Translations under genes and position numbers: made by a program
The notes under the pieces: generated by a model
Seen by the model: only the letters and a program-made list of their open reading frames with translations
Databases searched by the model: none
What the model was told of the DNA's origin: nothing
In this document: positions 18,717-52,485 of the stretch, piece after piece
How the letters are laid out: the number at the start of each line of letters is the position of its first letter
Numbering within the stretch: position 1 is the stretch's first letter
Assembly: GCF_003985155.1 (NCBI RefSeq)
Contig: NZ_ML133686.1
Coordinates: 404,001 to 468,000 of the forward strand
Direction of reading: 5' to 3'
DNA from: Rhizobium vallis
GTDB lineage: Bacteria; Pseudomonadota; Alphaproteobacteria; Rhizobiales; Rhizobiaceae
Length of the DNA stretch: 64,000 nt

Positions 18717-18740
18717 CTCAATTCCTCCAGCGCCGGTTTC

Positions 18741-28370: not shown

Positions 28371-28993
28371 CCGAGAACTCCCAGCAGATAGACGAAGGAA
28401 AAGACGCCGATCCAGACGACGTCGAGGAAGTGCCAAAACATTGAAAGGCACATCAGCCGGCGGCGGTTGGCCTCGACCAACCCGTGCATCGACACCTGCA
28501 CCATCAGCGTGATGATCCAGATAATGCCGAAGGTAACGTGCAGTCCGTGCGTGCCGACCAGCGTGAAGAAGGAAGACAGGAAGGCGCTGCGCGTCGGCCC
28601 GGCGCCTTCATGGATCAGGTGGATGAACTCATAGAGTTCGAGCCCGATGAAGGCGGCGCCGAACAGGCCGGTGACGGCGAGCCAGAACAGCGTTTCCGCC
28701 TTTGCGTTCCGCTCCATCTGCAGCATGGCAAAGCCGTAGGTGATCGAGGAGAAGAGCAGCATCGAGGTGTTGAGGGCAACGATCGGCAGATCGAAGAGAT
28801 CGGCCGGCGACGGACCGGCGGCATAGTTACGGCCGAGCACGCCGTGCGTCGCAAACAGCACCGCGAAGATCAGGCAGTCGCTCATCAGGTAGAGCCAGAA
28901 GCCGAGATTGGTGCTGCCTTCGGGATGATGGTCTTCCGTCAGGTAGAATTCAGGCTTTTCGGCCGTGTCGATGGTTTGATCGCTCATGGTCAT
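28367..28993 (-). CDS. cyoC: Cytochrome o ubiquinol oxidase subunit III
   Basis: About 208 residues from an ATG at 28993 that shares one base with the cyoB stop (TAATG). Five membrane helices are visible: [24 protein letters not shown] at the start, then [34 protein letters not shown] and [23 protein letters not shown] at the end. It is a structural subunit of the inner-membrane bo3-type oxidase. An in-frame ATG at 28987 is the alternative start. Confidence 0.94.
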
Positions 28994-30996
28994 TACACCT
29001 GCTCGGCAAGCAGCGCGGTGCGCTTGCCTTCCGTTTCGGTCACGTCTTCGGCGGGGATGTAGAAGTCGCGTCCGTAGTTGAAGGTATGGCCGATCGCCAC
29101 GACGAGCAGGGCGACGAAGGACACGACGACCAGCCACCACATGTACCAGATCAGGCCGAAGGCGAGCGCGACGCTGATGGCGGACAGGATCGCGCCGGTG
29201 CCGGTGTTTTTCGGCATGTGGATCGGCTTGAAACCGCCGAGCGGGCGCTCGTAGCCACGGTTCTTCATATCGTACCAGCTGTCATGATCGTGCACGACGG
29301 GCGTCAAGGCGAAATTGTACTCCGGCGGCGGCGAAGAAGTCGACCATTCCAGCGTACGGCCGTCCCAGGGATCGCCGCTGTCGTCGCGCAATTCCTCGCG
29401 CTTCATGAAGCTGACGACGATCTGGATCAGGAAGGCGGCGATGCCAAGTGCGATCAGGCCGACGCCGAAGGCGGCGATGATGAACCAGATCTGCAGCGAC
29501 GGGTCATCGAACTGGCTCATGCGGCGGGTGACGCCCATCAGGCCGAGCACATAGAGCGGCATGAAGGCGAACCAGAAACCGATCTGCCAGAACCAGAAGC
29601 TCATCTTGCCCCAGAAGGGATCGAGCTTGAAGCCGAAAGCCTTCGGAAACCAGTAGTTCACGCCGGCGAACATGCCGAAGAGAACGCCGCCGATGATGAC
29701 GTTATGGAAGTGGGCGATGAGGAACAATGAATTGTGCAGCACGAAGTCGGCCGGCGGCACGGCCAGCATGACGCCGGTCATGCCGCCGATGACGAAGGTC
29801 ACCATGAAGCCGACGGTCCACAGCATCGGCACTTCATAGCGGATGCGGCCCCGATACATGGTGAAGAGCCAGTTGAATATCTTCGCCCCCGTCGGGATGG
29901 AGATAATCATCGTGGTGATGCCGAAGAAGGAGTTGACGCTGGCGCCCGAGCCCATCGTGAAGAAGTGGTGCAGCCAGACGATATAGGACAGGATCATGAT
30001 CACGCAGGTCGCATAGACCATGGAGGCGTAGCCGAAGAGGCGTTTGCCGGAGAAGGTGGCAACCACTTCCGAGAAGATGCCGAAGGCCGGCAGCACGAGA
30101 ATGTAGACCTCCGGATGACCCCAGATCCAGATGAGGTTGATGTACATCATCGGGTTGCCGCCGAGGTCATTGGTGAAGAAGTTCGTTCCCGCATAACGGT
30201 CGAGCGACAGCAGCGCGAGCGTGGCCGTTAGGATCGGGAAAGAGGCGACGATCAGCACGTTGGTGCAGAGCGCCGTCCAGGTGAAGACCGGCATCTTCAT
30301 GAAGGTCATGCCCGGCGCCCTCATCTTGACGATGGTGGCGATCAGGTTGATGCCCGAAAGCGTCGTTCCGACACCGGCCACCTGCAGACCCCAGATATAA
30401 TAGTCGACGCCCACACCCGGACTGTAGGCAGCGCCCGACAGTGGCGGGTAGGCAAGCCAGCCCGTCTGGGCGAATTCGCCGATGAAGAGCGACAACATGA
30501 TGATGATCGCGCCGGCGGTGGTCATCCAGAAAGAGAAATTGTTGAGGAAGGGGAAGGAGACGTCGCGCGCGCCAATCTGCAGCGGCACCACGAAGTTCAT
30601 GAGGCCGGTGACGAAGGGCATCGCCACGAAGAAGATCATGATGACGCCGTGGGCGGTGAAGACCTGATCGTAATGATGCGGCGGCAGGTAGCCCTCCGAA
30701 CCGTTGAAGGCGAGCGCCTGCTGGATGCGCATCAGGATCGCGTCGGAAAAGCCGCGCAACAGCATGATGACGGCCAGGATCACATACATGATGCCGATCT
30801 TCTTGTGATCGACGCTGCAGATCCAGTCGTGCCAGAGCGGACCCCAGAACCTGAAATAGGTGATGGCGCCAAGCACGGCGATGCCGCCGATGACGACGCC
30901 GATGAACGTCACGACCAGGATCGGCTCGTGATAGGGGATGGCATCGAGGGTCAACCGGCCGAAGATGAACTTCAGGAGGTCAGGATTGGAAAACAT
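28993..30996 (-). CDS. cyoB: Cytochrome o ubiquinol oxidase subunit I
   Basis: 667 residues with about 14-15 membrane helices. Haem-copper oxidase hallmarks are present: [15 protein letters not shown] (haem ligand His), [17 protein letters not shown] (CuB His and cross-linked Tyr), [10 protein letters not shown] (two CuB His), and [17 protein letters not shown] (haem ligands). The enzyme oxidises ubiquinol and reduces oxygen while pumping protons. It lies 42 bp downstream of cyoA. All key residues that can be read are intact. Confidence 0.96.
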
Positions 30997-31038
30997 GGAA
31001 CAACCCGTTCATTATGTCTTGCGACGCAAAGCGCCAGG

Positions 31039-32175
31039 TTAATTGTTATTGTTGAGCTGCGCCGGCGCGGGATCGGCGCCATTGCTCATGCCGGGCATGG
31101 AATGGCCCTCATGCTGCATGTCCATTCCGGGCGTGCTCTGCATGCCGGGCATGTCGTGCTGCATGCTGTTGCCATCGGTGGCGGCGGGCGCCACGATGCC
31201 TTGGTCGGCATGGCGATTGTCGTATTGAAGCTTCTCGCGATTTTCTGCGCTTTCCTTGCCGCCACCGCCGGTCATGTCGATGTGCATCATCTCGTTCATG
31301 CACATCTTGCCCGGCTTGGCGCACATATTGAGGATGGCGCCGTAGAGATCGGCATCGGCGCCGGCATAGTAGCGCACGGGCTCCTTCTCGCTCGGCTTCT
31401 CAAGCTTCAGATAGGCGTCGCGGTTGAGCATCGTGCCCTGCTGCTTGACCTGCGCCACCCAGGCGTCAAACCCCTCTCGGGGAAGGCCGTGGAACTTGAA
31501 GCGCATGTGCGAGAAGCCCGCGCCGCTGTAGTTGGCGGAGAAGCCCTCGTACTCGCCTTCTTTGTTGATGACGGCGTGCAGCTTCGTCTCCATGCCCGGC
31601 ATGGCATAGATCTGGCCGGCGAGGGCGGGGATGTAGAAGGAATTCATCACCGAGGAGGCGGTGATCTTGAAATTGATCGGCATGTCGACAGGGGCTGCGA
31701 GTTCGTTGACTGTGGCAATGCCGAGTTCGGGATAGAAGAACAGCCACTTCCAGTCGAGCGCCACGACCTCGACGGTCAGCGGCTTGGTATCGGCCGGAAT
31801 GGCGCGCTCCGCGTCGAGACGGTCGAGGGGGCGATAAGGATCGAGCTTATGCGTGGAAATCCAGGTGACGGCGCCGAGCGCGATGATGATGGCGAGCGGA
31901 GCCGCCCAGATCACGATTTCAAGCCGGGTCGAATGGTGCCATTCCGGATCGTAAGTCGCAGCCGTGTTGGAGCGGCGGTAGCGCCATGCGAAGAACAGCG
32001 TCAGGAAAATCACCGGAACGATGATCAGCAGCATGAGCACCGTCGAGATGACGATGAGATCGCGCTGTTGCATGGCGATGTCGCCGGAAGGCGCCATGAC
32101 CACCATGTTGCATCCTGCCAGGAAAAGCAGCGGCAAGACGGATAGAAGGCGGGAAAACTTCACGAGTTTTGGCAC
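31039..32175 (-). CDS. cyoA: Cytochrome o ubiquinol oxidase subunit II with Met/His-rich C-terminal tail
   Basis: 378 residues with a GTG start. The lipobox LFLAGC gives a lipidated Cys22. Two membrane helices (about 40-62 and 85-105) precede a periplasmic cupredoxin domain (VEVVALDWKWLFFYPE, then MNSFYIPALAGQIYAMPGM) that lacks the CuA Cys ligands, as usual for quinol oxidases. After about residue 320 an unusual tail runs in which MQHDMPGM, TPGMDMQHEGHSMPGM and similar Met/His clusters recur, like copper-binding motifs. It is the first gene of the cyoABCD-SURF1 operon. Confidence 0.95.
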   Translation of the reverse strand: MPKLVKFSRLLSVLPLLFLAGCNMVVMAPSGDIAMQQRDLIVISTVLMLLIIVPVIFLTLFFAWRYRRSNTAATYDPEWHHSTRLEIVIWAAPLAIIIALGAVTWISTHKLDPYRPLDRLDAERAIPADTKPLTVEVVALDWKWLFFYPELGIATVNELAAPVDMPINFKITASSVMNSFYIPALAGQIYAMPGMETKLHAVINKEGEYEGFSANYSGAGFSHMRFKFHGLPREGFDAWVAQVKQQGTMLNRDAYLKLEKPSEKEPVRYYAGADADLYGAILNMCAKPGKMCMNEMMHIDMTGGGGKESAENREKLQYDNRHADQGIVAPAATDGNSMQHDMPGMQSTPGMDMQHEGHSMPGMSNGADPAPAQLNNNN

Positions 32176-34776: not shown

Positions 34777-35244
34777 TTATTGTGCCATTTGCGGCTGCTT
34801 TGCCGCCCGGGCCGCGGTCAGCTCCGCGGTCGTATGGTTCAGGCGGTCGGCGAGCACGCGCATGATTTCCACGGCCATTTCAGGGAAATCGCTGAGCAGC
34901 TTCAGGAAGTGCTCCTTGCTGATGCGCAGCACCTCAAGCGGTGAGGTGGCGCGCACCGTCGCCGTGCGCGAGACGTCGCAGAGGATGGCGATCTCGCCGA
35001 CGATGGAATTGAGCTCGACATCGGCGACTTTGATCTCGCCTGCCGGCGAGGAGACGATGATATCGGCAGTACCCGAGAGGATGACATAGGCGGCGTCGCC
35101 AACATCGCCCTGATGAAAGAGGTTCTGCCCGGCTTTGTAGGTCATGCGGTCGGAGGTGAAGGCCAAAAGCTTGAGCTTTGCTGGCGCAATCCTTGAAAAG
35201 ATCGGCACCCGTCGTAGCATTTCGACTTCGTCTCTCAACAGCAT
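34777..35244 (-). CDS. Stand-alone cyclic-nucleotide-binding domain protein
   Basis: About 155 residues from an ATG at 35244. It is a single Crp-like cNMP domain: VPIFSRIAPAKLKLLAF, then AGQNLFHQGDVGDAAYVILSG, then VGEIAILCDVSRTATVRA, whose GE and R..T positions form the phosphate-binding cassette, and a helical end. No DNA-binding HTH or membrane part follows, so it must act on a partner protein. It lies 102 bp downstream of the ABC-like gene on the same strand and may be co-transcribed. Class III cyclase genes at 48-49 kb and 61-62 kb could supply the ligand. Confidence 0.85.
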   Translation of the reverse strand: MLLRDEVEMLRRVPIFSRIAPAKLKLLAFTSDRMTYKAGQNLFHQGDVGDAAYVILSGTADIIVSSPAGEIKVADVELNSIVGEIAILCDVSRTATVRATSPLEVLRISKEHFLKLLSDFPEMAVEIMRVLADRLNHTTAELTAARAAKQPQMAQ

Positions 35245-35346
35245 GAGCGTTTTCAACCCCCTGACGCAGGGTCCGCGAGACCAGGCGCCTTTACAATTCC
35301 TGGGCGTTCCGCCGGGAACGCCTACCACCGCCGCCTCAATAGAATA

Positions 35347-38061
35347 TTACGATAACAGTTCCTTGAACATCCCGTTTTTCTCTGAAAGTTCCGGATAGTT
35401 TCCGGCTTCCGCCAATCCGCCGCGGTCGAAGAGCAGTATCCGGTCGAACATCTCGGCCAGCCGGGCATTGGAGAGCACCCAGATGATCGCCGGTCGATGG
35501 CCTTCCTCGTGCAGATCCTCGATGATGTTGCGGGTAATCTGATCCTGAACACGCTGGTCGAGCGCCGATAGTGGCCGGTTGAAGATGAAATAGTCCGAAC
35601 GCTTCAAAAGCGCGCGGGCAAGATTGAGCTTCTGCCGCTGCACCATGGTCAGCCGCTTGCCGCCGGAGCCGACGTCGAATTCGAGGCCGATCGACAGCAC
35701 GTCGTCAAAAAGGTCGAGCGCATCGAAGAGCTCGCCCATGATCGCGCGGATGCGGTCGGAGGCGTCGGCCTGCTGATAGGCGATGCGGCCGAACAGCACA
35801 TTGTCCATCAGGCTCGCCGAAGGGGTGAAACGCTCGGCGTCGTAGCGCTCGATCAACTCGGCGAGATCGGCCGGAATATGCTCGTGGAACTGCTTGCGGG
35901 CGCTGACGATCTTGTTCATCAGTTCGTCCGTCAGCAAACCGAAGCGGTGGCGCGGTTCGATATAGGCGAAGCTCAGCCGGATGATGGCCGAGCGTTCCTC
36001 GGGTGTCGCATCCTCGAAGCGGCGGCTCTGTAGCTTCTGCAGCAGCGCCTGGTAGGTCGGAATGTCGTCCGCCGTCATGAAGGTCAGCTGCTGGAAGAAG
36101 GGATGGTCCGGCGGCAGATCGTGGAAGAGTTCCACCGCGTTCTCGGCGATCTCGAGGCCCATCGCGTAGAGGTCGGTGCTGAGGCCGGTCTCACGGAACA
36201 GCTGCTGGAAGTAGGGGTGGGCGGCAAGCCTGCGATTGGTCATCAACGGCCGCTTCATCGTGCCGAAGAGCAGGTTCTCGCCAACCGTCGCCTGAGCGTT
36301 GTAGGCGTCGAAATCAAAAGGCACGACGATGCCGTCAAGCCCTTCGTCCCGCAGCCGGTCCCTCAGCGAGGTGCGCAATGCGACGACGTGGTCGCTGACG
36401 GCCACATGCACGTCGGTATTAACAGTCGAGCGCAGTGCCAGATCGAGGATGTCCTGCGAGATCAGGACGGCGTCGAGCACCGGGCGAATCGCCTTCAGCA
36501 GATCATCAGGCCCGTTGGCGCCGGCAGCCTTGTAGTCCACCCAGTCGCTGTTGAGGTCGAGCGTCGGATTGCCGGCCTTCACCGCTTCGGCGGAATGCCA
36601 TTTATATTCGAGCGCTTCCCTCTCGTCGTAAACAGGCTCGATCATCGGCGCGTGCTTGAGGCCGTAGAGCAGATTGCTGGCGAGCGTGCCATGAAAGAAG
36701 AACGTGTCGGCCGAAGCATAGGAAATGCGCCGGCCAGTGATCGATTCCGGCAGCTCCAGGAGATCGCGCCCGTCGATGGTGATGCGGCCGGAATCCGGCC
36801 AGATCATGCGTCCGAGCGCTTCGGCGAAGGCTTCGGCGCCACTGCCGTTCGGGCCGACGATCGCAACCGTCTCGTTCGGCTTGATTTCGACGGAGACGTG
36901 GTCGACGAGGCGGGCGCCGCTGTCGTCGGAGAGCGTCAGGTTGGTGACGACCAGTGCGCTCGTCAGCGCGCCGACCGGGGCAACCGCCAGTTCCTGGATG
37001 CGGCTGTCGATCAGCGGCTCGACGTTGAACTGCTCATAGACCTGCTGGTATTTCACCTGGACGTCCTGGCGCATCTGGTCCCAGTCGATCAGTTCCTTCA
37101 GCGGGCCCGGCAGGTCCTTGTAGGCTGATATGACGGCGACGAGCTGGCCGATGTCGAGCCTGCCCTGCAGCGCCAGGTAGCCGCCGATCGCGTAGAACAG
37201 GAAAGGCGTGACCTGGGCGAGGAAGTTGTTGATGAACTTTACCAGGAACTTCCACTGGTAAAGGTCATAGCGGATCGAGAAGATGCGGCCGAGCCGCGAG
37301 GCGATGTCGGCGCGTTCGAGGTTTGATGTGTCGTTGCCGTGGATCGTGCCGATACCGTCGACGATCTCACCGACGCGGCCGGAAAGCTCGCGTGCCGTCA
37401 GCTGCCGCTGGCGGCCGAGGTCCAGCAGGCGCTTGCGCATGCGGGGGATGACGACCGCCTGCACGCCGACGATGCCGGCGGCGATCATGCCGAGCCAGAA
37501 ATTCTGCACGATGATGAAGGCGAGCGCGGTGATCGCCTGGCCGCCGAGAAGGGCGGGCGAGACGAAGGCGTCGCCGGTGAAGCCGCCCATCGGCTCCACC
37601 TCGTCCTTGATCATGGTGGCGATCTCGGCCGATTTCACCCGCTTGAAATGGATGGGCGGAAAACGCAGCACCCGGTCGATCAGCTCGAAACGGATGCGGC
37701 GCAGCATGCGCTCGCCGAGCCGGCCCTTATAGGTGTTGATGTAGAACTTGAAGAGACCGTTCAGCACCACCAGTGCCAGAAACACCAGGCTGAGGGCCAT
37801 CAGCATCTGGAAGCGGTTGAGCTGCAGTCCTTGAAAGAACTCGACATGGCCGATCAGCGGAATGTCATAGGCGATGTGCATGAAGGTCTGCCGGGCGCCC
37901 GGGCCTTCGAAGCCGTCGCCCTGAATCGGTCCGTTGACGATCTGCTTCGGCAGATCGAAGGACAGGAAATAGGGCACCATCGAGGCGGCAACGATGGCCA
38001 GAATCCACAGCTGCTGCAGCCGCGTGTTCTTCCAGATGTAGCGGGCGAGGCTTTTTTCCAT
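35347..38061 (-). CDS. ABC-transporter-like membrane protein with pseudo-ATPase domain
   Basis: 904 residues. An exporter-type membrane domain (about 1-345; helices near 18-35, 85-108, 170-205, 280-300) with the GRLGERMLRRIRFELIDRVLRFP helix is followed by an NBD-like domain that starts near 368. Every ATP-handling motif is altered. Walker A is GPNGSGAEAF (403-412), with Ala for Lys and Glu for Ser/Thr. The Q-loop Gln is missing (YASADTFFFHG). The signature is LTMVQRQK (804-811). Walker B is YFIFNRPLSALD (824-835), without Asp-Glu. The switch His is replaced (LSNARL). About 330 residues separate the Q-loop from the signature, versus roughly 60 normally. Three copies of an NLL(Y/F)G-type motif lie in this stretch. 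It probably does not hydrolyse ATP; the role is unknown. Confidence 0.88.
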   Translation of the reverse strand: MEKSLARYIWKNTRLQQLWILAIVAASMVPYFLSFDLPKQIVNGPIQGDGFEGPGARQTFMHIAYDIPLIGHVEFFQGLQLNRFQMLMALSLVFLALVVLNGLFKFYINTYKGRLGERMLRRIRFELIDRVLRFPPIHFKRVKSAEIATMIKDEVEPMGGFTGDAFVSPALLGGQAITALAFIIVQNFWLGMIAAGIVGVQAVVIPRMRKRLLDLGRQRQLTARELSGRVGEIVDGIGTIHGNDTSNLERADIASRLGRIFSIRYDLYQWKFLVKFINNFLAQVTPFLFYAIGGYLALQGRLDIGQLVAVISAYKDLPGPLKELIDWDQMRQDVQVKYQQVYEQFNVEPLIDSRIQELAVAPVGALTSALVVTNLTLSDDSGARLVDHVSVEIKPNETVAIVGPNGSGAEAFAEALGRMIWPDSGRITIDGRDLLELPESITGRRISYASADTFFFHGTLASNLLYGLKHAPMIEPVYDEREALEYKWHSAEAVKAGNPTLDLNSDWVDYKAAGANGPDDLLKAIRPVLDAVLISQDILDLALRSTVNTDVHVAVSDHVVALRTSLRDRLRDEGLDGIVVPFDFDAYNAQATVGENLLFGTMKRPLMTNRRLAAHPYFQQLFRETGLSTDLYAMGLEIAENAVELFHDLPPDHPFFQQLTFMTADDIPTYQALLQKLQSRRFEDATPEERSAIIRLSFAYIEPRHRFGLLTDELMNKIVSARKQFHEHIPADLAELIERYDAERFTPSASLMDNVLFGRIAYQQADASDRIRAIMGELFDALDLFDDVLSIGLEFDVGSGGKRLTMVQRQKLNLARALLKRSDYFIFNRPLSALDQRVQDQITRNIIEDLHEEGHRPAIIWVLSNARLAEMFDRILLFDRGGLAEAGNYPELSEKNGMFKELLS

Positions 38062-38241: not shown

Positions 38242-39387
38242 TTAGGCGAGCGATTCGGCAATCATGGAGCGAATGATGGCAGCCGTTGCCTCCGCCCCAT
38301 CGAGATCGAGCAATACTGGTTCCGGTCGCGGTGCCGCGAGCGCCTTTTCGACGGCTTCTTTTACATGGCCAGGCGTCAGCCCGGTTTCCGGCAGGATGTC
38401 AGCGAGGCCGAGCGCCTGCAGCCGCTCGGCGCGCACCGTCTGCTCTGTCTCACCGCCAGCGACGAAGGGGACGAGGATTGCCCGGCAGTCGGTGCGCAGC
38501 AGATCGCCGACCGTGTTGTAGCCCGCCTGCGAGATCGAAACCCGGGCACCGCGCAACAGCGAGGGAAAATCCTTGCGGAAGCGCACCAGAGTCACGTTCC
38601 GGGCCGCATCGCGCGACAGCGCGGCAAAATCGGCCTCCGGCAGGTTCGGTCCTGATATCAGCAGCCAGCGAAGATCGGCGGGCAGCATTGCCGCCGCTTC
38701 CTTTGCCGCGCCGATCAGCTCGGCACCGACCGCGCCGCCACCGGCCGAGGCGATGATATCGAATGTCTCGGTCGGCTCCGGCGCCGGCGGAGCTGCGACG
38801 AGGCCGGTATAACGCAGCCTGTCTGAGATTTCGGGTGTTAGCGGGAAGGTATCCTCGAGCCGCACGAACTCAGGATCGCCGTGAACGAGCACGGCATCGA
38901 AATGCTCCTTGACCAGCGTGACCGTCTCCGCATCGCGCCCGGCCTTGCGGTTTTCCTGCAGGATGTCGCGCACCGAGCTCAAGAGTTTCGGCCGGGGTTC
39001 GGCCTTTTCGATCGCCGCAAGCAATGGCAGCAGTTCGAAGCGCATCTGCCGCCGGCCGAAGGGGAAGGCTTCGATGATGACGACATCAGGCCTTGCGGCA
39101 TGAAAGGCGTCGAGCAGCAGTTCGCGGCGGGCATCGAGGAAAGTTTGGTCCGCCGGTCGGCCGTCGGCATCGGCGAGGCCCGAGAAGCCGGCATTGCTGG
39201 CAACAACCGCAGGCAAGGCCACGGTCTTCATGCCGTCGCCTGGAAAACCCGGCACCGGCAGGCCGCCGGTCACGACGGTCACGTCGAAACCGTCCTTCAC
39301 CAATGCATTGGCGATGCGGCTGGCGCGGGCAATGTGGCCGATGCCTAGCAGATGCTGGACATAGAAGAAGATACGCGGTGCCGTCAT
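38242..39387 (-). CDS. GT-B glycosyltransferase, MurG/GT28-like
   Basis: About 381 residues. The true start is the ATG at 39387 (MTAPRIFFYVQHLLGIGHIA), which overlaps the stop of the upstream glycosyltransferase by 4 bp; a longer frame upstream is antisense coding noise. GIGHIARASRIANAL with DGFDVTVVTGG is the N-terminal GT-B Rossmann fold of MurG-like enzymes. SQAGYNTVGDLLRTDCRAILVPF and ETEQTVRAERL match the C-terminal donor-binding region. It is likely a cytoplasmic or membrane-associated transferase; donor and acceptor are unknown. It is the last of three consecutive transferases, 180 bp upstream of the ABC-like gene. Confidence 0.88.
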   Translation of the reverse strand: MTAPRIFFYVQHLLGIGHIARASRIANALVKDGFDVTVVTGGLPVPGFPGDGMKTVALPAVVASNAGFSGLADADGRPADQTFLDARRELLLDAFHAARPDVVIIEAFPFGRRQMRFELLPLLAAIEKAEPRPKLLSSVRDILQENRKAGRDAETVTLVKEHFDAVLVHGDPEFVRLEDTFPLTPEISDRLRYTGLVAAPPAPEPTETFDIIASAGGGAVGAELIGAAKEAAAMLPADLRWLLISGPNLPEADFAALSRDAARNVTLVRFRKDFPSLLRGARVSISQAGYNTVGDLLRTDCRAILVPFVAGGETEQTVRAERLQALGLADILPETGLTPGHVKEAVEKALAAPRPEPVLLDLDGAEATAAIIRSMIAESLA

Positions 39388-40631
39388 GACGCCTTCTGCC
39401 ATTCGGCCTCGAACAGACCGGTGAGCTGTCTGATGCTGGAGTGATAGTCGAAATGCGCGCGCACTTGGCTTTCGGCCGCGTCGCCGAGCCGCTTGCGCAA
39501 TGCCGGGTCGCGGATTGCCGTTTCCAGCGCCCGGGCAAGCAGCGCCGGGTCCTCCGGCGGCACGACAAGACCGTTTTCGCCGTTTTTCAACAGTTCCGGT
39601 ACGCCGGATACGTCGGTGGAGAGGCAGACGAGCCGCTGGCTCGACGCTTCGACGAGAACGTTCGGCAGGCCGTCGCGGTCGCCGTTGGCCGCGATCCGGC
39701 AGGCAAGCGCGAAGAGGTCGGCCCGGCGGTAATGATCGAGCACGTCTTCCTGCGCCATGGCGCCCTTCCAGACGATGCGGCCGGACAGTCCGAGTTCGGA
39801 GGCAAGCGCCTTCAGTTTCGAAAGTTCCTCGCCGCCGCCGATATGGTCCATACGCCAGTGGAGTTCGGCCGGCAGAAGTGCCAACGCACGCAGCAGCACG
39901 TCGTAGCCCTTCTTCTCGACGGCGCGGCCGACGCTGAGGATGAAGGCCGGATCGTTGGGATCGCCGCCGGTGCGATCCGAACGCTCGCCGGCAAAATGGC
40001 CGAAGCGGGCGAGATCGAGGCCGTGGTAACTCAGATGCACGGCGTCCCTGCGTGATGTCAGCGTCCGCATGTGCTCGTAGCCCGTCCTGGTGCAGGTAAC
40101 CGCCCAGCGGGCGCTGCCGAGCTTTTCCTGCAGTTCCCAGTCGGGTGAGGTCCATATGTCCTTGGCATGCGCCGAGCAGGTCCAGGGCGTGCCCGTCAGG
40201 ATGCTCGCATATTCCGTCACCGAGGCCGGTGTGTGGATGAAATGGGCATGCAGCCATTCGCCTTCATCAGGCCATTCGCGCCCAAGCACCAGCGCCTGGC
40301 CGAGGCGGCGGAAGCGGTTGCGGGAAATGTCGCGCTGGAGGTCGGCGAGGAAGCGCTTCATCAGCGCCTTGAAGCCGGGCTTCGAAAAACCGGCGAACAG
40401 GCCTTTCAGCACGCGGATCGGCTCCTCGTGCAGATATTCCGGGAGATAGACGACACGCGCCTTGATCTCGTCATGCACGGGATGACGTTTCTTGTCGGTC
40501 GGCCGGCGCATCGAAATCAGCGTCAGGTCGAAGCCGGCCTTTTCCAAGCCGAGCAGCTCCTGGGCAATGAAGGTTTCCGAAAGGCGGGGATAGCCTTTCA
40601 GCACGACGAGGATCTTGCGGCGTGGCGGCAA
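39384..40631 (-). CDS. Glycosyltransferase family 4 (GT1-domain) protein
   Basis: 415 residues, GT-B fold. The N-terminus ILVVLKGYPRLSETFIAQELLGLEKAG is typical of GT4 enzymes, with a HAHFIHTP motif near 130. The C-terminal half has FILSVGRAVEKKGYDVLLRAL, then RRADLFALACR, and EASSQRLVCLSTDVSGVPELL with NGLVVPPEDP, containing the conserved EX7E-like block. It transfers a sugar from a nucleotide donor, probably in surface polysaccharide synthesis. It follows the first transferase by 9 bp and overlaps the third by 4 bp. Confidence 0.92.
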   Translation of the reverse strand: MPPRRKILVVLKGYPRLSETFIAQELLGLEKAGFDLTLISMRRPTDKKRHPVHDEIKARVVYLPEYLHEEPIRVLKGLFAGFSKPGFKALMKRFLADLQRDISRNRFRRLGQALVLGREWPDEGEWLHAHFIHTPASVTEYASILTGTPWTCSAHAKDIWTSPDWELQEKLGSARWAVTCTRTGYEHMRTLTSRRDAVHLSYHGLDLARFGHFAGERSDRTGGDPNDPAFILSVGRAVEKKGYDVLLRALALLPAELHWRMDHIGGGEELSKLKALASELGLSGRIVWKGAMAQEDVLDHYRRADLFALACRIAANGDRDGLPNVLVEASSQRLVCLSTDVSGVPELLKNGENGLVVPPEDPALLARALETAIRDPALRKRLGDAAESQVRAHFDYHSSIRQLTGLFEAEWQKAS

Positions 40632-40640
40632 GGCTGTGCC

Positions 40641-41849
40641 CTATTCTGCGCCGACGAGGGCAAGGTGGCTGCTGCGGCCGTCGATCCACCGGCCGACGGT
40701 CTGCGAGATATGGTCCAGCCCTTCGAGACGCATGTTGCTGCCGGTCTTCGACGGCGGCAGGCGGGAGGGCAGGCGCTTCAGCGCCTCGGCCATGACAGTC
40801 GGATCGGCCGATTGCTCCGGCAGCAGCATGTCGACGAGGCCGAGTTCGCTCGCGCGCTGGGCACGCAGCAGCTGCTCCTCGCGCGGTGCAACACGCGGCA
40901 CGATGAGCGCCGGCTTGTCGAAGGAGAGGATTTCGCAATAGGTGTTGTAGCCGCCCATGGCGACGACACCGGTGGCGCCATCGATCAGCTCTTCCATGTG
41001 ATTGTCGAACTCGATTACCTCGATATAGGGGATGGCTTCCCCTTTCTGCACCAGCTTGGCCCGTTCGGCAGCCGGCATATAGGGGCCGAGCACGACGAGC
41101 GCCTTCTGCGTCAAGGTCGGATCGGCCTCGTAGGCGTTCATGACGTCGTGGACGAGATCGGAGCCGTCGCCGCCGCCGCCTGTGGTGACGAGGAGGTAGT
41201 TGTCCTTGCGGGCATTGATCGAGGTCTTGCCCTTGGAGACGCTGCGCTGCAGGAAGCCGACGAAATCCATTTTCCGGCGCAGGCTCGCCGGCACGTCGAG
41301 ACCAACAAGCGGGTCATAGAAGTCAGGCGGACCATAGACCCAGACGCTGTCGTAATATTGGTCGATCTTCTGCATGATGCTGTTCTTCTTCCACTCGGCC
41401 TCGAGCAGATGCGGCGCATCCATGATCTCGCGCAGGCCGAGCACCAGGACGGTGCCTTGGGCCTTGAGATAGGCGAGCGTATCCTCGACCTCGCCCTTCA
41501 GCCCCATCGGCTCCTTGTCGACGATGAAGATATCGGGCTGGAAGGTCTCGGCGGTGTGGCGAATGCTCGATTCGCGCATCTTCAGCGTCTCGTGCAGGTC
41601 GATATGGCTCGCTAGCGACGTATATTCGCCGTTGCGGAGCTTGATGACACTCGGGATCTTCACGAAGTCGACGCGGGCGCGGTAGTCGAAGGCGCCAGCG
41701 ATCGTCGCACCCGAAATGATCAGGATGTTGAGGCCGCGATAATCCTCGACCAGCGCATGGGCGATGGCGCGACAGCGGCGCAGGTGGCCGAGACCGAAGG
41801 TGTCGTGACTGTACATGAGGATGCGTGCATCTTCGAGACGTCTGGACAT
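40641..41849 (-). CDS. GT-B glycosyltransferase, MurG-like, first of the cluster
   Basis: About 402 residues. The ATG at 41849 is preferred because an AGAGGGA ribosome site lies 7 nt upstream; two earlier in-frame ATGs have poorer sites. ILMYSHDTFGLGHLRRCRAIAHAL is a GT-B N-terminus similar to the third transferase, so the two outer genes are probably paralogues. VTTGGGGDGSDLV and GVVAMGGYNTYCEILSFDKPALIVPR with REEQLLRAQRA form the donor-binding half. Start of a minus-strand cluster of three transferases; 97 bp downstream of a peptide importer. Confidence 0.88.
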   Translation of the reverse strand: MSRRLEDARILMYSHDTFGLGHLRRCRAIAHALVEDYRGLNILIISGATIAGAFDYRARVDFVKIPSVIKLRNGEYTSLASHIDLHETLKMRESSIRHTAETFQPDIFIVDKEPMGLKGEVEDTLAYLKAQGTVLVLGLREIMDAPHLLEAEWKKNSIMQKIDQYYDSVWVYGPPDFYDPLVGLDVPASLRRKMDFVGFLQRSVSKGKTSINARKDNYLLVTTGGGGDGSDLVHDVMNAYEADPTLTQKALVVLGPYMPAAERAKLVQKGEAIPYIEVIEFDNHMEELIDGATGVVAMGGYNTYCEILSFDKPALIVPRVAPREEQLLRAQRASELGLVDMLLPEQSADPTVMAEALKRLPSRLPPSKTGSNMRLEGLDHISQTVGRWIDGRSSHLALVGAE

Positions 41850-41945
41850 GGGCATTCCCTCTGGGGTGAGCAACATATTTAGCACCCCCACCGTCCGGAG
41901 GCCACGCGGCGGGGGCGGTGCCGTAAGGCGCCGCCGAGCTTTCTG

Positions 41946-43118
41946 CTATTTGTAGGGATCTGCCGCATCACGCAAGCCGTCTCCCAGAAAGTTGAACGCC
42001 AAAATGACAAGAACAACAGGAATGATCGGATAGAGCAGCCATGGATAGAAGGCGATGACGCTGACGCTTTTTGCCTCGGTCAGCAGGATGCCCCAGCTGG
42101 TGATCGGCGGACGAAGGCCGAGACCGAGGAAAGAGAGCGCGGTTTCGCCGAGGATCATGCCGGGGATCGAAATCGTTGCCGAGGCAATGAGATGCGACAT
42201 GAAGCCCGGTACCAGATGCCGGCCGATGACGCGCGGCGTGCTGGCGCCCATCAGCTGCGCGGCCTGCACGTAATCCTCCTCGCGCAACGCGAGCAGCTTG
42301 GAGCGCACGGCGCGCGCAAGGCCCGTCCAGTCGATGATGCCGAGGATGACCGTTATGCCGAAATAGATGACGATCGGGCTCCATGTCACCGGCATGATGG
42401 CCGCCAGCGCCATCCATAGCGGCAGACTGGGCAGCGATTGCAGCACCTCGATCAGACGCTGGACGATGAGGTCGAAAACGCCGCCCCAATAACCGGCAAG
42501 GCCGCCGATGACGATACCGAGCACGAAGCTGATCGAAATGCCGATCAGGCCGATCGTCAGCGAAATCCGCGCGCCGTAGAGGATGCGCGAGAGAACGTCA
42601 CGGCCGAGCCGGTCAGTGCCGAGCAGGAACATCTGGCCGCCGATCGCCGGGCAGACGAGATGATAGTCCGAGGCAGCAATGCCCCAGAACTTGTAGGAAT
42701 CGCCGCGGCAGAAGAAACGGATCGGCTGGACGTCGTTCGTCTTGTCGGTATAGACGCGGTGCAGCGTGTCGATGTCGAGCGTCATGCTGCGGCCGTAGAC
42801 GAAGGGTCCAACGAAATTGCCCTTGTCAAAGAAGTGGACGCGCTGCGGCGGCGCATGGATGAAATCGACATTGCGCGTGTGCAGCCCGTAAGGCGCCAGG
42901 AACTCGACGATCAGGATCATCAGGTAGACGGCAGCGAGAAAGATGCCGGAGATCAAGGCCAGCCGGTGCTGCTTGAACTTCCACCACATCAGCTGCTTTT
43001 GCGAGGCGAGATGGATGCGCGATTGCGCCGCCGTCATCGTCTCGGTCGCGTGCGGATCGAAAGGAGCAGTCGAGACGTAATGCGGAAGCGGCGCGCCGGG
43101 TGCGGGAAGGGGCGACAT
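41946..43118 (-). CDS. Opp/Dpp-type ABC transporter permease (OppC/YejE-like)
   Basis: 390 residues. A long cytoplasmic leader precedes TM1 (about 52-72), followed by a periplasmic insert (about 75-165) and five further helices. The BPD_transp_1 signature is in EEDYVQAAQLMGASTPRVIGRHLVPG (EAA loop). The late block GLGLRPPITSWGILLTEAKS is typical of OppC-type permeases. The ATG overlaps the stop of the partner permease by one base. It is the last gene of a four-gene importer operon. Confidence 0.93.
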   Translation of the reverse strand: MSPLPAPGAPLPHYVSTAPFDPHATETMTAAQSRIHLASQKQLMWWKFKQHRLALISGIFLAAVYLMILIVEFLAPYGLHTRNVDFIHAPPQRVHFFDKGNFVGPFVYGRSMTLDIDTLHRVYTDKTNDVQPIRFFCRGDSYKFWGIAASDYHLVCPAIGGQMFLLGTDRLGRDVLSRILYGARISLTIGLIGISISFVLGIVIGGLAGYWGGVFDLIVQRLIEVLQSLPSLPLWMALAAIMPVTWSPIVIYFGITVILGIIDWTGLARAVRSKLLALREEDYVQAAQLMGASTPRVIGRHLVPGFMSHLIASATISIPGMILGETALSFLGLGLRPPITSWGILLTEAKSVSVIAFYPWLLYPIIPVVLVILAFNFLGDGLRDAADPYK

Positions 43119-44116
43119 TATTTGGTGCTCCTGCCTTGCAGACGGATGCGGGGATCGAGGAAGCCGAGCGCGATGTCCGAGATCAGCACCCCGATGACGT
43201 TGAGGAAGGCCAGGAACATCAGGAAGGAGCCGGCGAGATACATATCCTGGCTCTGCAGCGCCTTGATGAGCATCGGTCCCGTCGTCTCCAGCGACAGCAC
43301 GATCGCTACGATCTCGGCGCCCGAGATGATCGACGGCAGGATCGAGCCGATATCGGCGATGAAGAAGTTGAGCGCCATGCGCAGCGGATATTTGACCAGC
43401 GCCCGCAACGGCGGCAGGCCCTTGGCGCGGGCGGTCACGACATACTGCTTCTGCATCTCGTCGAGCAAGTTGGCGCGCAGCCGCCGGATCATGCCGGCCG
43501 TTCCCGCCGTTCCGACGATAATGACGGGGATCCAGAGATGGGCGAGGATCGATTTCGCCTTTTCCCAGCTCATCGGCGCGTTGAGATATTCCTGGTCCAT
43601 CAGGTGGCCGATCGACAGCCCGAACCAGACATTGGCGAAATACATCAGGATCAGCGCCAGCATGAAGTTCGGGATGGCGATGCCGAGCAGACCGAAGAAG
43701 GTCAGCCCGTAGTCGCCCCAGCTATATTGATGGGTGGCCGAATAGATGCCGATCGGAAAGGCAATCAGCCAGGTGAGCAGGATCGTGGTGAAGGAGACGA
43801 GGATCGTTAGCCAAAGGCGGTCGCCGACCACGTCCGAGACTGGCAGCTGATATTCGAAGGAATAGCCGAAATCGCCGTGCAGCATGCCGCCGACCCAGTA
43901 GAAATAGCGCACGACCTCCGGCTTGTCGAAGCCGTATTGCTGGCGCATCTCCTCGATTTCCTGGAGATTGGCGGTCTCGCCCGAGGCGCGCAACTCGGCG
44001 ATCTGGCTCTCGAAGAAGTCACCCGGCGGCAGCTCGATGATGGTGAAAACAAGCGCCGAAATGACGAAGAGTGTTGGGACCATGGCGGCGATGCGCCAGA
44101 GAATGTATCTGAGCAC
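43118..44116 (-). CDS. Opp/Dpp-type ABC transporter permease (OppB/YejB-like)
   Basis: 332 residues, six membrane helices. The N-terminus MLRYILWRIAAMVPTLFVIS and the block GDFGYSFEYQLPVSDVVGDRL are hallmarks of OppB permeases. The EAA loop is YVVTARAKGLPPLRALVKYPLR, and the end SGAEIVAIVLSLETTGPMLIKALQSQDM is conserved. It pairs with the OppC-like permease that overlaps its stop codon. It lies 3 bp downstream of the binding-protein gene. Confidence 0.94.
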   Translation of the reverse strand: MLRYILWRIAAMVPTLFVISALVFTIIELPPGDFFESQIAELRASGETANLQEIEEMRQQYGFDKPEVVRYFYWVGGMLHGDFGYSFEYQLPVSDVVGDRLWLTILVSFTTILLTWLIAFPIGIYSATHQYSWGDYGLTFFGLLGIAIPNFMLALILMYFANVWFGLSIGHLMDQEYLNAPMSWEKAKSILAHLWIPVIIVGTAGTAGMIRRLRANLLDEMQKQYVVTARAKGLPPLRALVKYPLRMALNFFIADIGSILPSIISGAEIVAIVLSLETTGPMLIKALQSQDMYLAGSFLMFLAFLNVIGVLISDIALGFLDPRIRLQGRSTK

Positions 44117-44119
44117 GCC

Positions 44120-46026
44120 TCAGGCCTCCTTGTACCAGAATGCATCCGGCATGTAGACGCCGAGATAGGAGGTGGGATCGAAGCCGTAGAGCGCTTTCTC
44201 AGGCAGGTTCTGCAGCTTGGCGGCTCGAAGGATCGGCTGCAGCGTGCTGTTGATGAGGCCGATCGAGAAGACCTGTTGCGTATAGAGCGACAGCATCTTG
44301 TGCCAGATCACCTCGCGCTCCTCGAATTTCGCCGTCGAACCCCACTGGCCGAGCAGATCGACCAACTCGGCCGCCTCCGGCAGGTCGGGTGCGGCGCCTT
44401 CCTGGCCGGCGGAGAGGTAGTGCATGCCCCAGAGCGGCCATTGCAGCTGATCGTCGAGCGTCGGCGCAAGTCCGGAGGGCGACATGTCGGCCGTCGGCAC
44501 GCCATTGTCCAGGCCGTACCAGATCGACATCATGATCGTGCCGCTCATGGCGCGGTTGCGGAAGACGTCGCGCTGCGAGGTGCGGGTATAGAGCGCAAGG
44601 CCGATATTGGCCCAGTGGTCATGCACCAGCTCCAGCACGTCGGTATCGAGGTTGCTCTCGCCGGCGGTCTCGACGGTGATCTCGGCGCGTCGTCCATCCG
44701 GCAGCAACCGGATGCCGTCATCGCCGCGCTTGGCCAGGCCAAGCTCGTCGAGCAGGCGGTTGGCCTCGTCGGGATCGAATTTCACGTAGGCGTCGGCATA
44801 TTCCTGCTTGAAGAGCGGGCTGTCGGGCAGGACGGTATCGGCACTCGGCGTGCCGAGGCCGTAGAAGGCGACCATGTTGACCTCGTGCCGGTCGATCGCC
44901 AACGAGAGCGCCCGGCGCAGGCGCACGTCGCGGAACAGGCCGCGCCACGCCTCGTCGGCGCAGTTGAGATTGGGCAGCAGCGTGATGCGCGAGCCGCGCG
45001 CGACCTTCCAGAGATCGACCTTTACCGGGAAACGCTTCTCGGCCTCCTTCAGGAAGGTGTAGTCGTTGAAATCGATGCCGGTCGCCTGCAGGTCGGCTTC
45101 GCCGGCACCGGCCTTGGCGGCAATGATCGACGAGGAGGAGACGTTGAGGATGAAGCGGTCGAGATAGGGAAGCTGTCTGCCGGTCTCGTCGACGCGGTGG
45201 AAGAACGGGTTTCGATCGAAGACGAATTGCTCGGCCGGCAGCGGCGTCGTATTGCGCCAGGGATCGAGCGTCGGCAGGTTCGGGTTTTCCGGGCGGTAGG
45301 ACCGCGCCATCTTGATATGCAGATCCTGCCATTTCTTGACGCGGTTGGCCTGCATCATCTGTTCCATCTTCGCCTGGTCCGGCTGGAACTTCTTGTGGAA
45401 CTGCTTGAGGTAATGCGCCGGGCCGAAGATGACGAGCGGTATGGGGCCCGCCAAAGTCGGCAGGAACATCGGGTTGGGTTTTTCCCAGGTGTAGCGCACG
45501 GTCAGCGGATCGAGCATCTCGAAGCGCGGCAGATTGCCATGCGGGCGAAGCTCCAGCGCGCCGCCGCCAGGCGTCAGCTTGTCGTTCAGGATGACGTCTT
45601 CCCACCAATAGCGGAAATCGTCGGCGGTGAAGGGCTCACCGTCGGACCATTTATGGCCCTCGCGCAGCGTGAAGGTGAAGACCGTGTCGTCCTCGGAACG
45701 GAAATCGGCCAGGATATCCGGCTGGAACTGCAGGTGCTTGTTGTAACCGACCAGGCGGGAATAGCCGTAGATCGTCATGAAGCGGATGTCGCGCTGGCCG
45801 CCGATGATGGTGCGCACGGTGCCGCCATAGGCGCCGGGTTCGAGCCCCATCTCCTTCAGATTGACGATGCGCGGGCGGGCGGGAATGCGCTCGGCCATCG
45901 GCGGCAGGCTGCCGGCGGCGAGCCGCTCCTTGAGGAATTCCGGCTCGACGGCCTGTTCAGCCCGAAGCACTGCTGGCGCGATCGCCGCGCCGACGAGACC
46001 GCCGAGGAAAATGCGACGCGTCACCA

Positions 46027-46027
<1 letters not shown>
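44120..46027 (-). CDS. ABC transporter substrate-binding protein, family 5
   Basis: 635 residues. The N-terminus VTRRIFLGGLVGAAIAPAVLRA fits a twin-arginine signal peptide (T-R-R-x-F-L), so it is probably exported folded. The SBP_bac_5 domain includes FTLREGHKWSDGEPFTADDFRYWWED and DVRLRRALSLAIDRHEVNMVAFYG. The length is above the 520-550 residues of typical OppA and resembles YejA-like proteins. Ligand class peptides or related compounds, not resolved. Its start shares one base with the stop of the ATPase gene. Confidence 0.92.
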
Positions 46028-47916
<1,889 letters not shown>

Positions 47917-48072: not shown

Positions 48073-49416
48073 TTACTGGATGAATTTCTCCATGCTTGTC
48101 TGCTTGACCTGTTTCTTGGCGTCGCGATGCAGGAGAATGACCTGCTCGGCCTCGGAGATCCCGTTCTGCGCGTTGTCGTGGAAGCTTTCGTCGACATGGA
48201 TATCAGGCGCCGGCGCGCGCGGCTGCAGCACCGTCACCTTCTGGCGGATGCCGCGCAGCTTCTCCTCGCCGAGCCGCGTCCATTCGCCGCCGCAATAGCC
48301 GGCGAAGGCCTGGCTGGCGACGACCTCGCGACCGTATTTCTTGGTGAGGATCTGCAGTCGCTGCACCTCGTTGACCGCCGATCCGAAGGCGGAGAAGGTC
48401 AGGCGGTCCTTGAGGCCGACATTGCCGAACATGACGTTGCCGACATGCAGGCCGATGCCGTAGCCGATCTTGCTGAGGCGCTTCTGCTCGCGGTCGTTGT
48501 TGAGTTCGGCAACCCGCGCCTGCGCCTGATGGACCGCCGAAAGAGCCGCCTCGCAGGCAATTTTCGAGGGGTCCTTGTGGCGTCCGCAGGGATAGACCGC
48601 GAGGAAGCCGTCGCCGAGGAAGCTCAGGATTTCGCCGCCATTGCGGTTGAAGGGCGCGGCGATCGCGTCGAAGAACTCGTTCAGCGTGTCGATATAGGCC
48701 TGCCGGCCTTCCTTTTCGGCATACATCGTGGATTCGCGCATGTCGCCCATCACGAGCGCCGCACGGATCGTTTCGCCGTCACCCCGGCGGATCTGGCCGT
48801 TCAGCACCCGCTTGCCGGCATCGCCGCCGAGATAGGTGGTCAGCATGTTGTTGGCGAGCTTGCCGAGCACTGCCATCTTGGCGGCGACCGCGAGATGGTT
48901 CTGCATGCGCAGCAGGGCGTCGATCATGTCGTCGGAAAAGCCGTTGTGATGGTCCGTCGACCAGGAGCCCATCATGCCCTGCACGGAGCCATCGCCGAAG
49001 GGCTGCACGAAGGCCAGGTAGTCGGTGAAATTGTCCTTGCGCAAATCCTCGAAGATCGGGAATTCGTTCGGCCCTTCCTGCGTCAGCCGGCGGCGGATGT
49101 GCTGCAGATTGTTGTCGAGCAGGTAGTAATAAGGGCTTTGCAGGAAACGGTCCGGCTTTTGGCCGGCCGGCATGCGGAAGCCTTCGATGGTGACGCCGCT
49201 GGCCCGCCGCCAGGTGAAGCTGAGCGCATCGTAGAGCGGATGCAGCATCGAAAACGTCAGATGCACGCGCGCGATCGGCAGGCCTGCGGAAGCAATCCTT
49301 TCGCAGAAACCACGCACGATGTTTTCAAGATCGTCTCCTGCCAGCGAAGAGTTCGTCAGCCATTCGGCGACCCGGTCCAACAGGATGGAGGACACGCTGG
49401 ATTCGATCGTGCTCAT
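48073..49416 (-). CDS. Class III adenylate/guanylate cyclase, soluble
   Basis: About 447 residues from an ATG at 49416 (ATG at 49434 is an alternative). There is no membrane segment. The N-terminal half (about 1-215) is a sensory region rich in helices. The catalytic domain has metal-binding Asp residues in VMGDMRESTMY and SFLGDGFLAVYP, and the transition-state Asn and Arg in FGSAVNEVQRLQ. These residues suggest an active enzyme making cyclic nucleotide. It stands alone, convergent to nothing and 155 bp upstream of the importer ATPase on the same strand. Whether it makes cAMP or cGMP cannot be read with certainty. Confidence 0.92.
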   Translation of the reverse strand: MSTIESSVSSILLDRVAEWLTNSSLAGDDLENIVRGFCERIASAGLPIARVHLTFSMLHPLYDALSFTWRRASGVTIEGFRMPAGQKPDRFLQSPYYYLLDNNLQHIRRRLTQEGPNEFPIFEDLRKDNFTDYLAFVQPFGDGSVQGMMGSWSTDHHNGFSDDMIDALLRMQNHLAVAAKMAVLGKLANNMLTTYLGGDAGKRVLNGQIRRGDGETIRAALVMGDMRESTMYAEKEGRQAYIDTLNEFFDAIAAPFNRNGGEILSFLGDGFLAVYPCGRHKDPSKIACEAALSAVHQAQARVAELNNDREQKRLSKIGYGIGLHVGNVMFGNVGLKDRLTFSAFGSAVNEVQRLQILTKKYGREVVASQAFAGYCGGEWTRLGEEKLRGIRQKVTVLQPRAPAPDIHVDESFHDNAQNGISEAEQVILLHRDAKKQVKQTSMEKFIQ

Positions 49417-49860
49417 TCTCGGTATGATCCTCATAAGGCACGCCATCCCCAAGAACCAAAAATCCTTCCGCCGGCACATTTTCATGCGCAGGACACAAGG
49501 AAATCAGGATGTACGAGCGGTATTATTGTGTCAACGATCTGCCGAGAGCCCGGCAGCGGCACCCCTCAGCTCTCCTGTCGGAGACCGGACGGGCAGTCCT
49601 TTCACGGCGGTTCATTATCAAAAGTCAAAATAGGGATGCTGCAATTGCGAAACAATGGGATCGGCATTTTTTTGTGCTCCGGCGTTGCAGCAAACGCGGC
49701 GGCCGAGTCATTTCCGCCACACCCGGCTAAACATCATAAGGCTGACGCTGTGCCGCTTTCTGCTCTCCCGCGCGGATAGGGTCCGCGCCCGGGTTTAATT
49801 TGTTGCGATCATGCACTAGATCAGCTTCCTGAAATTTCCCCGTTTTGAAAGATCCCGCCC
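49417..49860. other. Divergent intergenic region upstream of the UDP-sugar dehydrogenase
   Basis: 444 bp between the cyclase and dehydrogenase starts; no supported gene. It holds an A/T-rich stretch (about 49615-49680, with a run of T near 49668) and a hairpin GCGCGGA/TCCGCGC (49770-49788) about 72 bp before the dehydrogenase start, which might affect its expression. Confidence 0.5.
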
Positions 49861-52363: not shown

Positions 52364-52485
52364 GTCATCCAGCTTAGCACAGACCCATGTTGCTACTGCA
52401 ACGCCATTTCCCATTTACGGCAATCGACTTGGCAAGGTTTCATGTGTTAGCACCGCCTCACGATTTCATGACGGATACGGAATAG

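Follow-up and report, generated by a model that had tools for sequence, protein, structure and literature searches.

ABC (ATP-binding cassette) systems such as TAP, TM287/288, CFTR and SUR use a nucleotide-binding domain (NBD) with altered catalytic residues for regulation, and keep at least one ATP-binding site per dimer; in heterodimers, the degenerate half usually gives either a good Walker A motif or a good signature to the other site. The SLiPT transporters SbmA and BacA are not known to have an NBD. In SbmA, an exporter-type membrane domain functions without ATP and is energised by the proton gradient (PMC13316013), and degenerate sites are a familiar feature of exporters that are not homodimers (PMC7756269). 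A stretch of 64,000 nucleotides of the Rhizobium vallis genome (contig NZ_ML133686.1, positions 404,001 to 468,000), referred to here as the window, was found to encode a degenerate ABC exporter-like protein of 904 amino acids (35347..38061, on the reverse strand, as are all window coordinates given below). Like the B-family (type IV) exporters MsbA, NdvA, TM287/288 and PCAT1, it combines a membrane domain with an NBD core fold; unlike them, it has no complete ATP site, carries about 300 extra residues between the Q-loop and the signature, and has a cyclic-nucleotide-binding protein as its genetic partner. With SbmA/BacA it shares a membrane domain of the type that works without ATP in those proteins, but it retains and enlarges the NBD that they lack.

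The frame is unbroken over all 904 codons (open reading frame check and translation). Two Pfam domains and no others were found in the protein: PF00664 at residues 87-312 (57.2 bits against a cut-off of 28), which in agreement with structure matches marks an exporter-type membrane domain (residues 1-350; 37012..38061), and PF00005 at residues 387-480 (51.3 bits against a cut-off of 25), which together with a match to the structure 3vx4_A marks the NBD fold. Sequence matches include ABCB4 (E 5.5e-33) and NdvA (E 1.7e-29), and the best NCBIfam match is MsbA, at 182 bits against a cut-off of 602. These profile searches place the protein among the ABC exporter families, as a preliminary description made from the sequence alone had supposed.

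That description also held that every ATPase motif had been lost, which proved right at all positions but one. In the Walker A remnant GPNGSGAE (residues 403-410; 36832..36855), A409 and E410 stand where Lys and Ser/Thr belong; the alignment places Ala at Q-loop position 451 (36709..36711) instead of Gln, Asn-Arg (N828-R829) instead of the Walker B Asp-Glu in the remnant YFIFNR (residues 824-829; 35575..35592), and Ser at H-loop position 864 (35470..35472) instead of His. In the signature remnant LTMVQ (residues 804-808, L804 to Q808; 35638..35652), Ser, Gly and Gly are absent and the final Gln is retained, the only one of ten scored positions of the canonical ATPase motifs that the protein keeps. 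The D-loop Asp835 is also retained. A hidden second ATP site was considered and rejected: no P-loop pattern ([AG]xxxxGK[ST]) was found by pattern scan anywhere in the 904 residues, and therefore no other segment supplies one. The R. vallis genome has one full-length copy of the gene, its 45 other matches reaching at most 39% identity; other ABC proteins (L002-L008) were excluded from the family alignment.

AlphaFold2 models the whole protein with a pLDDT of 83.3 and a pTM of 0.77, weakly at residues 173-187 and 312-321, and the predicted NBD core superposes on the whole NBD of ComA (3vx4_A) over 239 of 239 residues (Z 30.4, rmsd 2.0), in keeping with the earlier view that the fold has survived the loss of the motifs. 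The distance from the Q-loop (451) to the signature (804) is 353 residues, somewhat above the figure of about 330 first given for what is indeed an abnormally long spacing. The stretch between these motifs (residues 468-800; 35662..36660), which comprises extra copies together with the normal helical segment, is predicted to fold alone with a pLDDT of 88.8 and a pTM of 0.79. Pfam found no match in this insert, and only two weak single-member matches in the inserts of 55 members of the family; against the Protein Data Bank, the insert alone gave nothing at E 0.001 or better by Foldseek (best 0.75), and its 320 amino acids gave nothing at E 1 by phmmer.

Internal repeats account for the length of the insert. 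Profiles drawn from alignment A2 over residues 440-560 (R1), 560-690 (R2) and 715-800 (R3) were compared by hhalign, with 50 column shuffles as background. R2 (residues 560-637; 36151..36384) and R3 (residues 719-794; 35680..35907), the copy leading into the signature, match each other with a probability of 98.5, E 2.6e-15 and a score of 84 over 75 columns (shuffles at most 19.7). R1, directly after the Q-loop, is a weaker repeat, matching R2 with a probability of 82.8 and a score of 36 over 53 columns (shuffles at most 17.6), and R3 with a probability of 58.4 and a score of 29 over 29 columns (shuffles at most 15.1); a further six segments, taken from the membrane domain and the linker (residues 1-401), all scored below 18. 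Thus, the long spacing contains copies of the stretch that normally lies between the Q-loop and the signature. A motif Asn-hydrophobic-Leu-aromatic-Gly recurs at residues 463, 596 and 754, its Asn being present in 45, 48 and 48 of 48 diverse members, respectively. In structure comparison the insert reached at best Z 5.0 over 67 residues, below the level of Z 8 under which a match may reflect no more than a common arrangement. Its 17 top-scoring rows (Z 3.6-5.0), which align to residues 116-264 of the insert, are without exception exporter-fold ABC chains. The matched stretches of these chains, which we take to be the NBD helical subdomain, would be weak evidence if taken alone and appear to agree with the repeats.

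The losses are fixed within the genus, where 30 of 30 sequences (the window protein and 29 same-genus loci) lack the key residues: 22 of them read A/E at positions 409/410 and 8 read G/E, positions 828/829 are N/R in all 30, position 864 is S in 28, T in 1 and P in 1, and position 451 is A in 17 and S in 13. The gene was found in 36 of 36 sampled genomes of the genus (in one, G003, as two pieces on separate contigs), and a profile of the insert matched 118 of 120 genus genomes, including every one of the 113 good ones; the two genomes that gave no match are 73% and 82% complete. The genus matches listed sit in open frames of at least 905 amino acids; the exceptions are a match of 523 in G003 and, among the three in G035, one of 234. 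The three in G035, spread over the contigs C14, C57 and C70, are one complete copy, one nearly complete copy and one fragment. Ratios of nonsynonymous to synonymous substitution rates (dN/dS; Nei-Gojobori, own script) against six same-genus orthologues in three regions, 18 comparisons in total, ranged from 0.01 to 0.14 in the membrane domain, from 0.05 to 0.28 in the NBD core and from 0.04 to 0.26 in the insert; none exceeded 0.28, and the membrane domain was lowest in all six. All three regions are under purifying selection, and the membrane domain has many near-invariant charged and polar residues. Decay of the gene was ruled out on the grounds of the open frames, the dN/dS values and the genus-wide presence, which bears out the description of a full-length, maintained gene.

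For the wider family, 173 sequences were aligned and reduced to 90 at 80% identity. None of the 90 non-redundant members has a complete ATP site, the best having 7 of the 10 scored positions. The Q-loop Gln is found in 16, the signature Ser in 44 and the signature Gln in 69, Ser-Gly-Gly being complete in none; the Walker B Asp is present in 22 (Asn in 51). The Walker A Ser/Thr, which binds Mg, is kept in 11 and replaced by Glu or Asp in 65. Gly403 and Gly408 (80 each) and the D-loop Asp (79) are mostly kept. A search for orthologues with intact Walker A and Walker B motifs was not entirely empty: GK[ST] occurs in 3 of the 90 and Asp-Glu in 3, and L077 alone has both, without the signature and the His. 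In a tree built from the membrane-domain columns, Lys and non-Lys states are separated by at least 12 changes and Walker B Glu states by at least 13; the 14-row clade that contains the window protein (SH-aLRT 93) has Lys in none. The root of this tree is unreliable, the outgroup branches being saturated, and so one-way loss is not claimed. The pattern may mean that the site, with hydrolysis not under selection any more, has eroded repeatedly and that acidic residues are favoured at the would-be Mg position; any order of the loss events is put forward provisionally.

Directly downstream of the ABC gene lies a gene (34777..35328) whose product has a cyclic-nucleotide-binding domain, PF00027 (70.2 bits against a cut-off of 27.5), as its sole Pfam domain; its true start is probably further in, as the homologous gene of R. 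leguminosarum WSM2304 has 468 bases. Among 113 loci (L038-L045 and L075-L179; the short-flank loci L001, L009-L037 and L046-L074 were excluded), such a domain is the next gene or a fused C-terminus in 110, of which 109 were established from match positions and the other is L077, fused and lying further from the end of the match. A count of 97 of 111 based on stop-to-stop frames was discarded as too strict. C-terminal fusions number 11 of the 113 in a strict list; frame length alone gave 13, two of which (L082 and L109) are not in that list. An N-terminal fusion in L082 was also rejected, its 506 extra residues being a mere open frame upstream of the family start. In the phosphate-binding cassette of homologues collected by similarity to the window partner protein, all 111 have the Arg and 105 have the Glu (Asp in 5, Met in 1). 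Thus, the ligand site of the putative regulator is kept while the ATP site erodes, which speaks for a cyclic nucleotide, rather than ATP, as the controlling ligand.

Beyond the genus, the gene was carried by 8 of 24 other genomes of the order, by 129 of 385 genomes in a class sample that included the genome studied here (E 1e-60), and by 31 of 398 genomes in a phylum sample, all 31 of them within the class. It has matches at 97-98% in plasmid records from R. leguminosarum, R. phaseoli and their relatives. The relatives are mainly Alphaproteobacteria: among the 85 named loci listed, 65 are Alphaproteobacteria, 9 are Betaproteobacteria and 11 are without a class, 80 of the named loci having been taken from at least 585 confirmed. 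One clade of eight tree rows (SH-aLRT 100), seven labelled Betaproteobacteria and one labelled only Proteobacteria, may reflect transfer or binning error. Ten loci from metagenome-assembled genomes (L101-L106 and L109-L112; nine labelled Betaproteobacteria, one Proteobacteria) all have the cyclic-nucleotide gene, and eight of the ten have genes of the Opp type.

Upstream of the ABC gene, three glycosyltransferase genes were identified by Pfam: GTc (38242..39414) and GTa (40641..41891), both with a GT28-type C-terminal domain, and GTb (39384..40631) of GT group 1 (Glycos_transf_1). They are followed by genes for the Opp-type permeases OppC (41946..43118) and OppB (43118..44116), a substrate-binding protein (SBP_bac_5; 44120..46027) and a double ATPase, OppDF (46027..47916), in which the P-loop scan found two P-loops and which looks intact. 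Next is a gene for an adenylate/guanylate cyclase domain protein (48073..49485; PF00211, E 4.6e-7). Among 50 wide loci, many of them close rhizobial relatives and so not independent, glycosyltransferases akin to those in the window are present in 48 and Opp-type genes in 45, co-directional or divergent. The last glycosyltransferase and the ABC gene are less than 200 bases apart in the window; in WSM2304 (L095, 14034-15626), genes for YafY, VOC and EVE domain proteins lie between them.

Of 58 loci with flanks of at least 5 kb on either side, 56 showed no other half-exporter, the queries being six exporters of the same genome and the two halves in the window, so that a distant type could be missed; in the other two, one lies about 14 kb away (L095) or about 9 kb away (L175). 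The Rhizobium protein, with its own site lost and no intact half linked to it in these 56 loci, is unlike TAP, TM287/288, CFTR and SUR. Elsewhere in the window, two adjacent half-exporters are encoded at 16818-20594; a motif scan found the first without LSGG[QME] and the second without the Walker B DE/EE, and from these motifs the two may form an asymmetric heterodimer. A DUF3095 protein is encoded near the cyclase gene (51188-52414), and its homologues lie near the ABC gene in L040, L095, L155 and L176. Subunits I and II of a cytochrome oxidase are encoded at 28993-32175; in WSM2304 they are annotated cyoB and cyoA.

The same gene order is found in Sinorhizobium meliloti R28 (CP130050), with two additional genes, one for a polysaccharide lyase and one for a methyltransferase; next in line are genes for an FkbM methyltransferase and a LacI regulator. 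SM_b21272 likewise encodes a LacI regulator (PMC11387232), and SMb21265 is listed as a glycosyltransferase family protein (PMC10128002); these two anchors fit the CP130050 order, while SMb21252 was not placed. By counting back from SM_b21272, SMb21269 would be the ABC protein, SMb21270 the cyclic-nucleotide protein and SMb21265, by position, GTa. GTc has the same product name as GTa, so that the SMb21265 anchor fits two genes. By this numbering, the counterpart in S. meliloti would seem to belong to the published PPP cluster, in which nine genes of the range smb21252-smb21271 are stated, with the pSymB sequence paper cited, to be required for an as yet uncharacterised surface polysaccharide named PPP (PMC10128002). 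Besides its proposed part in polysaccharide synthesis, the cluster contributes to resistance against phazolicin, mutants in smb21252 and smb21265 being more sensitive to it (PMC10128002), and seven of the nine PPP genes rise during attack by Myxococcus (PMC10315480). Strain Sm2011 and many other strains match the counterpart over 2709 bases, and a few other records differ in length by some bases.

The reading favoured here, with moderate confidence, is that of an ATP-independent, cyclic-nucleotide-controlled protein of the ABC exporter fold that serves surface-glycan assembly. The protein would be a pseudo-ATPase exporter, in which a B-family membrane domain is joined to an NBD that retains its fold and probably its dimer arrangement, with no ATP cycle in the Rhizobium branch. 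Its helical subdomain, enlarged by tandem copying, would provide a docking or lever surface, and the adjacent (elsewhere fused) cyclic-nucleotide protein would bind the ABC protein and replace ATP as the conformational input. The complex would take part in building the surface polysaccharide that the linked glycosyltransferases produce. Its most likely role there would be the ATP-free passage or gating of a lipid-linked glycan, or of a lipid, across the inner membrane; alternatively, it would hold the glycosyltransferases. As the exporter-type membrane domain of SbmA works without ATP, and as the cyclic-nucleotide site is kept, ATP-independent, cyclic-nucleotide-controlled passage is favoured, with a scaffold as its main rival. 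A scaffold without transport, in which the membrane domain anchors the glycosyltransferases, the insert docks them and a cyclic nucleotide exerts control, is possible but unlikely; the glycosyltransferase linkage in 48 of the 50 wide loci and the large, conserved insert are what it would predict, whereas the membrane domain is the most constrained region and many of its charged and polar residues are near-invariant, which hints at a role beyond anchoring. It is quite doubtful that the protein is the inactive half of a heterodimeric exporter, a more extreme case of TM287/288 or TAP with its active half encoded elsewhere, when another half is found nearby in just 2 of the 58 loci with 5 kb or more on either side and both of the usual contributions of a degenerate half, a good Walker A or a good signature, are lost. 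The two exporter halves in the window itself (16818-20594) would nevertheless fit such an arrangement, and degenerate sites are common in heterodimers and full transporters (PMC7756269).

Several observations weigh against the favoured reading of an ATP-independent, cyclic-nucleotide-controlled protein. The Walker A Lys is present in 46 of the 90 family members, the Walker B Glu in 31 and the His in 13, with all three in 9, and L065, L067 and L100 carry GKT as well as the Glu and the His; not every member need therefore be inactive, and ATP binding or hydrolysis may persist in some branches. That the Rhizobium protein does so through a non-canonical site is very unlikely: the nine members with Lys, Glu and His together and the general retention of Gly403, Gly408, the signature Gln and the D-loop Asp would allow it, but the Lys, Ser/Thr, Asp, Glu, His and Q-loop Gln are absent from 30 of 30 genus sequences and no P-loop pattern occurs elsewhere in the protein. 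The link to the cyclic-nucleotide protein is genetic only, and in L083, L086 and L100 no cyclic-nucleotide domain was found in the roughly 2.0-2.5 kb covered downstream. In S. meliloti, cyaA, encoding an adenylate cyclase, was strongly depleted in a transposon screen, yet the sensitivity of an independent mutant was little changed (PMC10128002). The available passages of that paper do not name the ABC gene, so that its placement as SMb21269 comes from counting, with SMb21265 as the second anchor. Finally, the counterpart frame is broken in the Sm1021 pSymB record (L180, 35724-38433), and if this break is real the gene may be unneeded for PPP in that strain. Together with two-piece matches in some Sinorhizobium records, it is among the few frame breaks that would suit a decaying or misassembled gene, an explanation that is scarcely credible given the genus-wide open frames, dN/dS of at most 0.28 in 18 of 18 comparisons and the family-wide conservation.

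A broader version, in which the whole family has been converted from an ATP-driven exporter to a cyclic-nucleotide-gated channel, scramblase or flippase, the ATP site being repeatedly abandoned, the helical subdomain multiplied so as to receive another input and a cAMP-type sensor acquired either in trans or as a fusion, is offered tentatively and is on the whole improbable. No description of such a protein was found by a literature search on the family, on cyclic-nucleotide domains with ABC transporters and on inactive exporters, which did not cover most subscription journals; the combination of a complete site in 0 of 90 members, a multiplied helical subdomain and a cyclic-nucleotide partner is undescribed in the literature searched. 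Plasmid records mostly label the protein "ABC transporter ATP-binding protein" in spite of this lack of complete ATP sites. If it is ATP-independent, it would be a natural test, in an easily handled symbiont, of the role of an NBD that is no longer a motor. The locus is also a candidate second-messenger switch for a surface polysaccharide tied to tolerance of antibiotic peptides in rhizobia, and the family, if its wholesale conversion is true, would parallel CFTR or SUR in bacteria while answering to a different second messenger.

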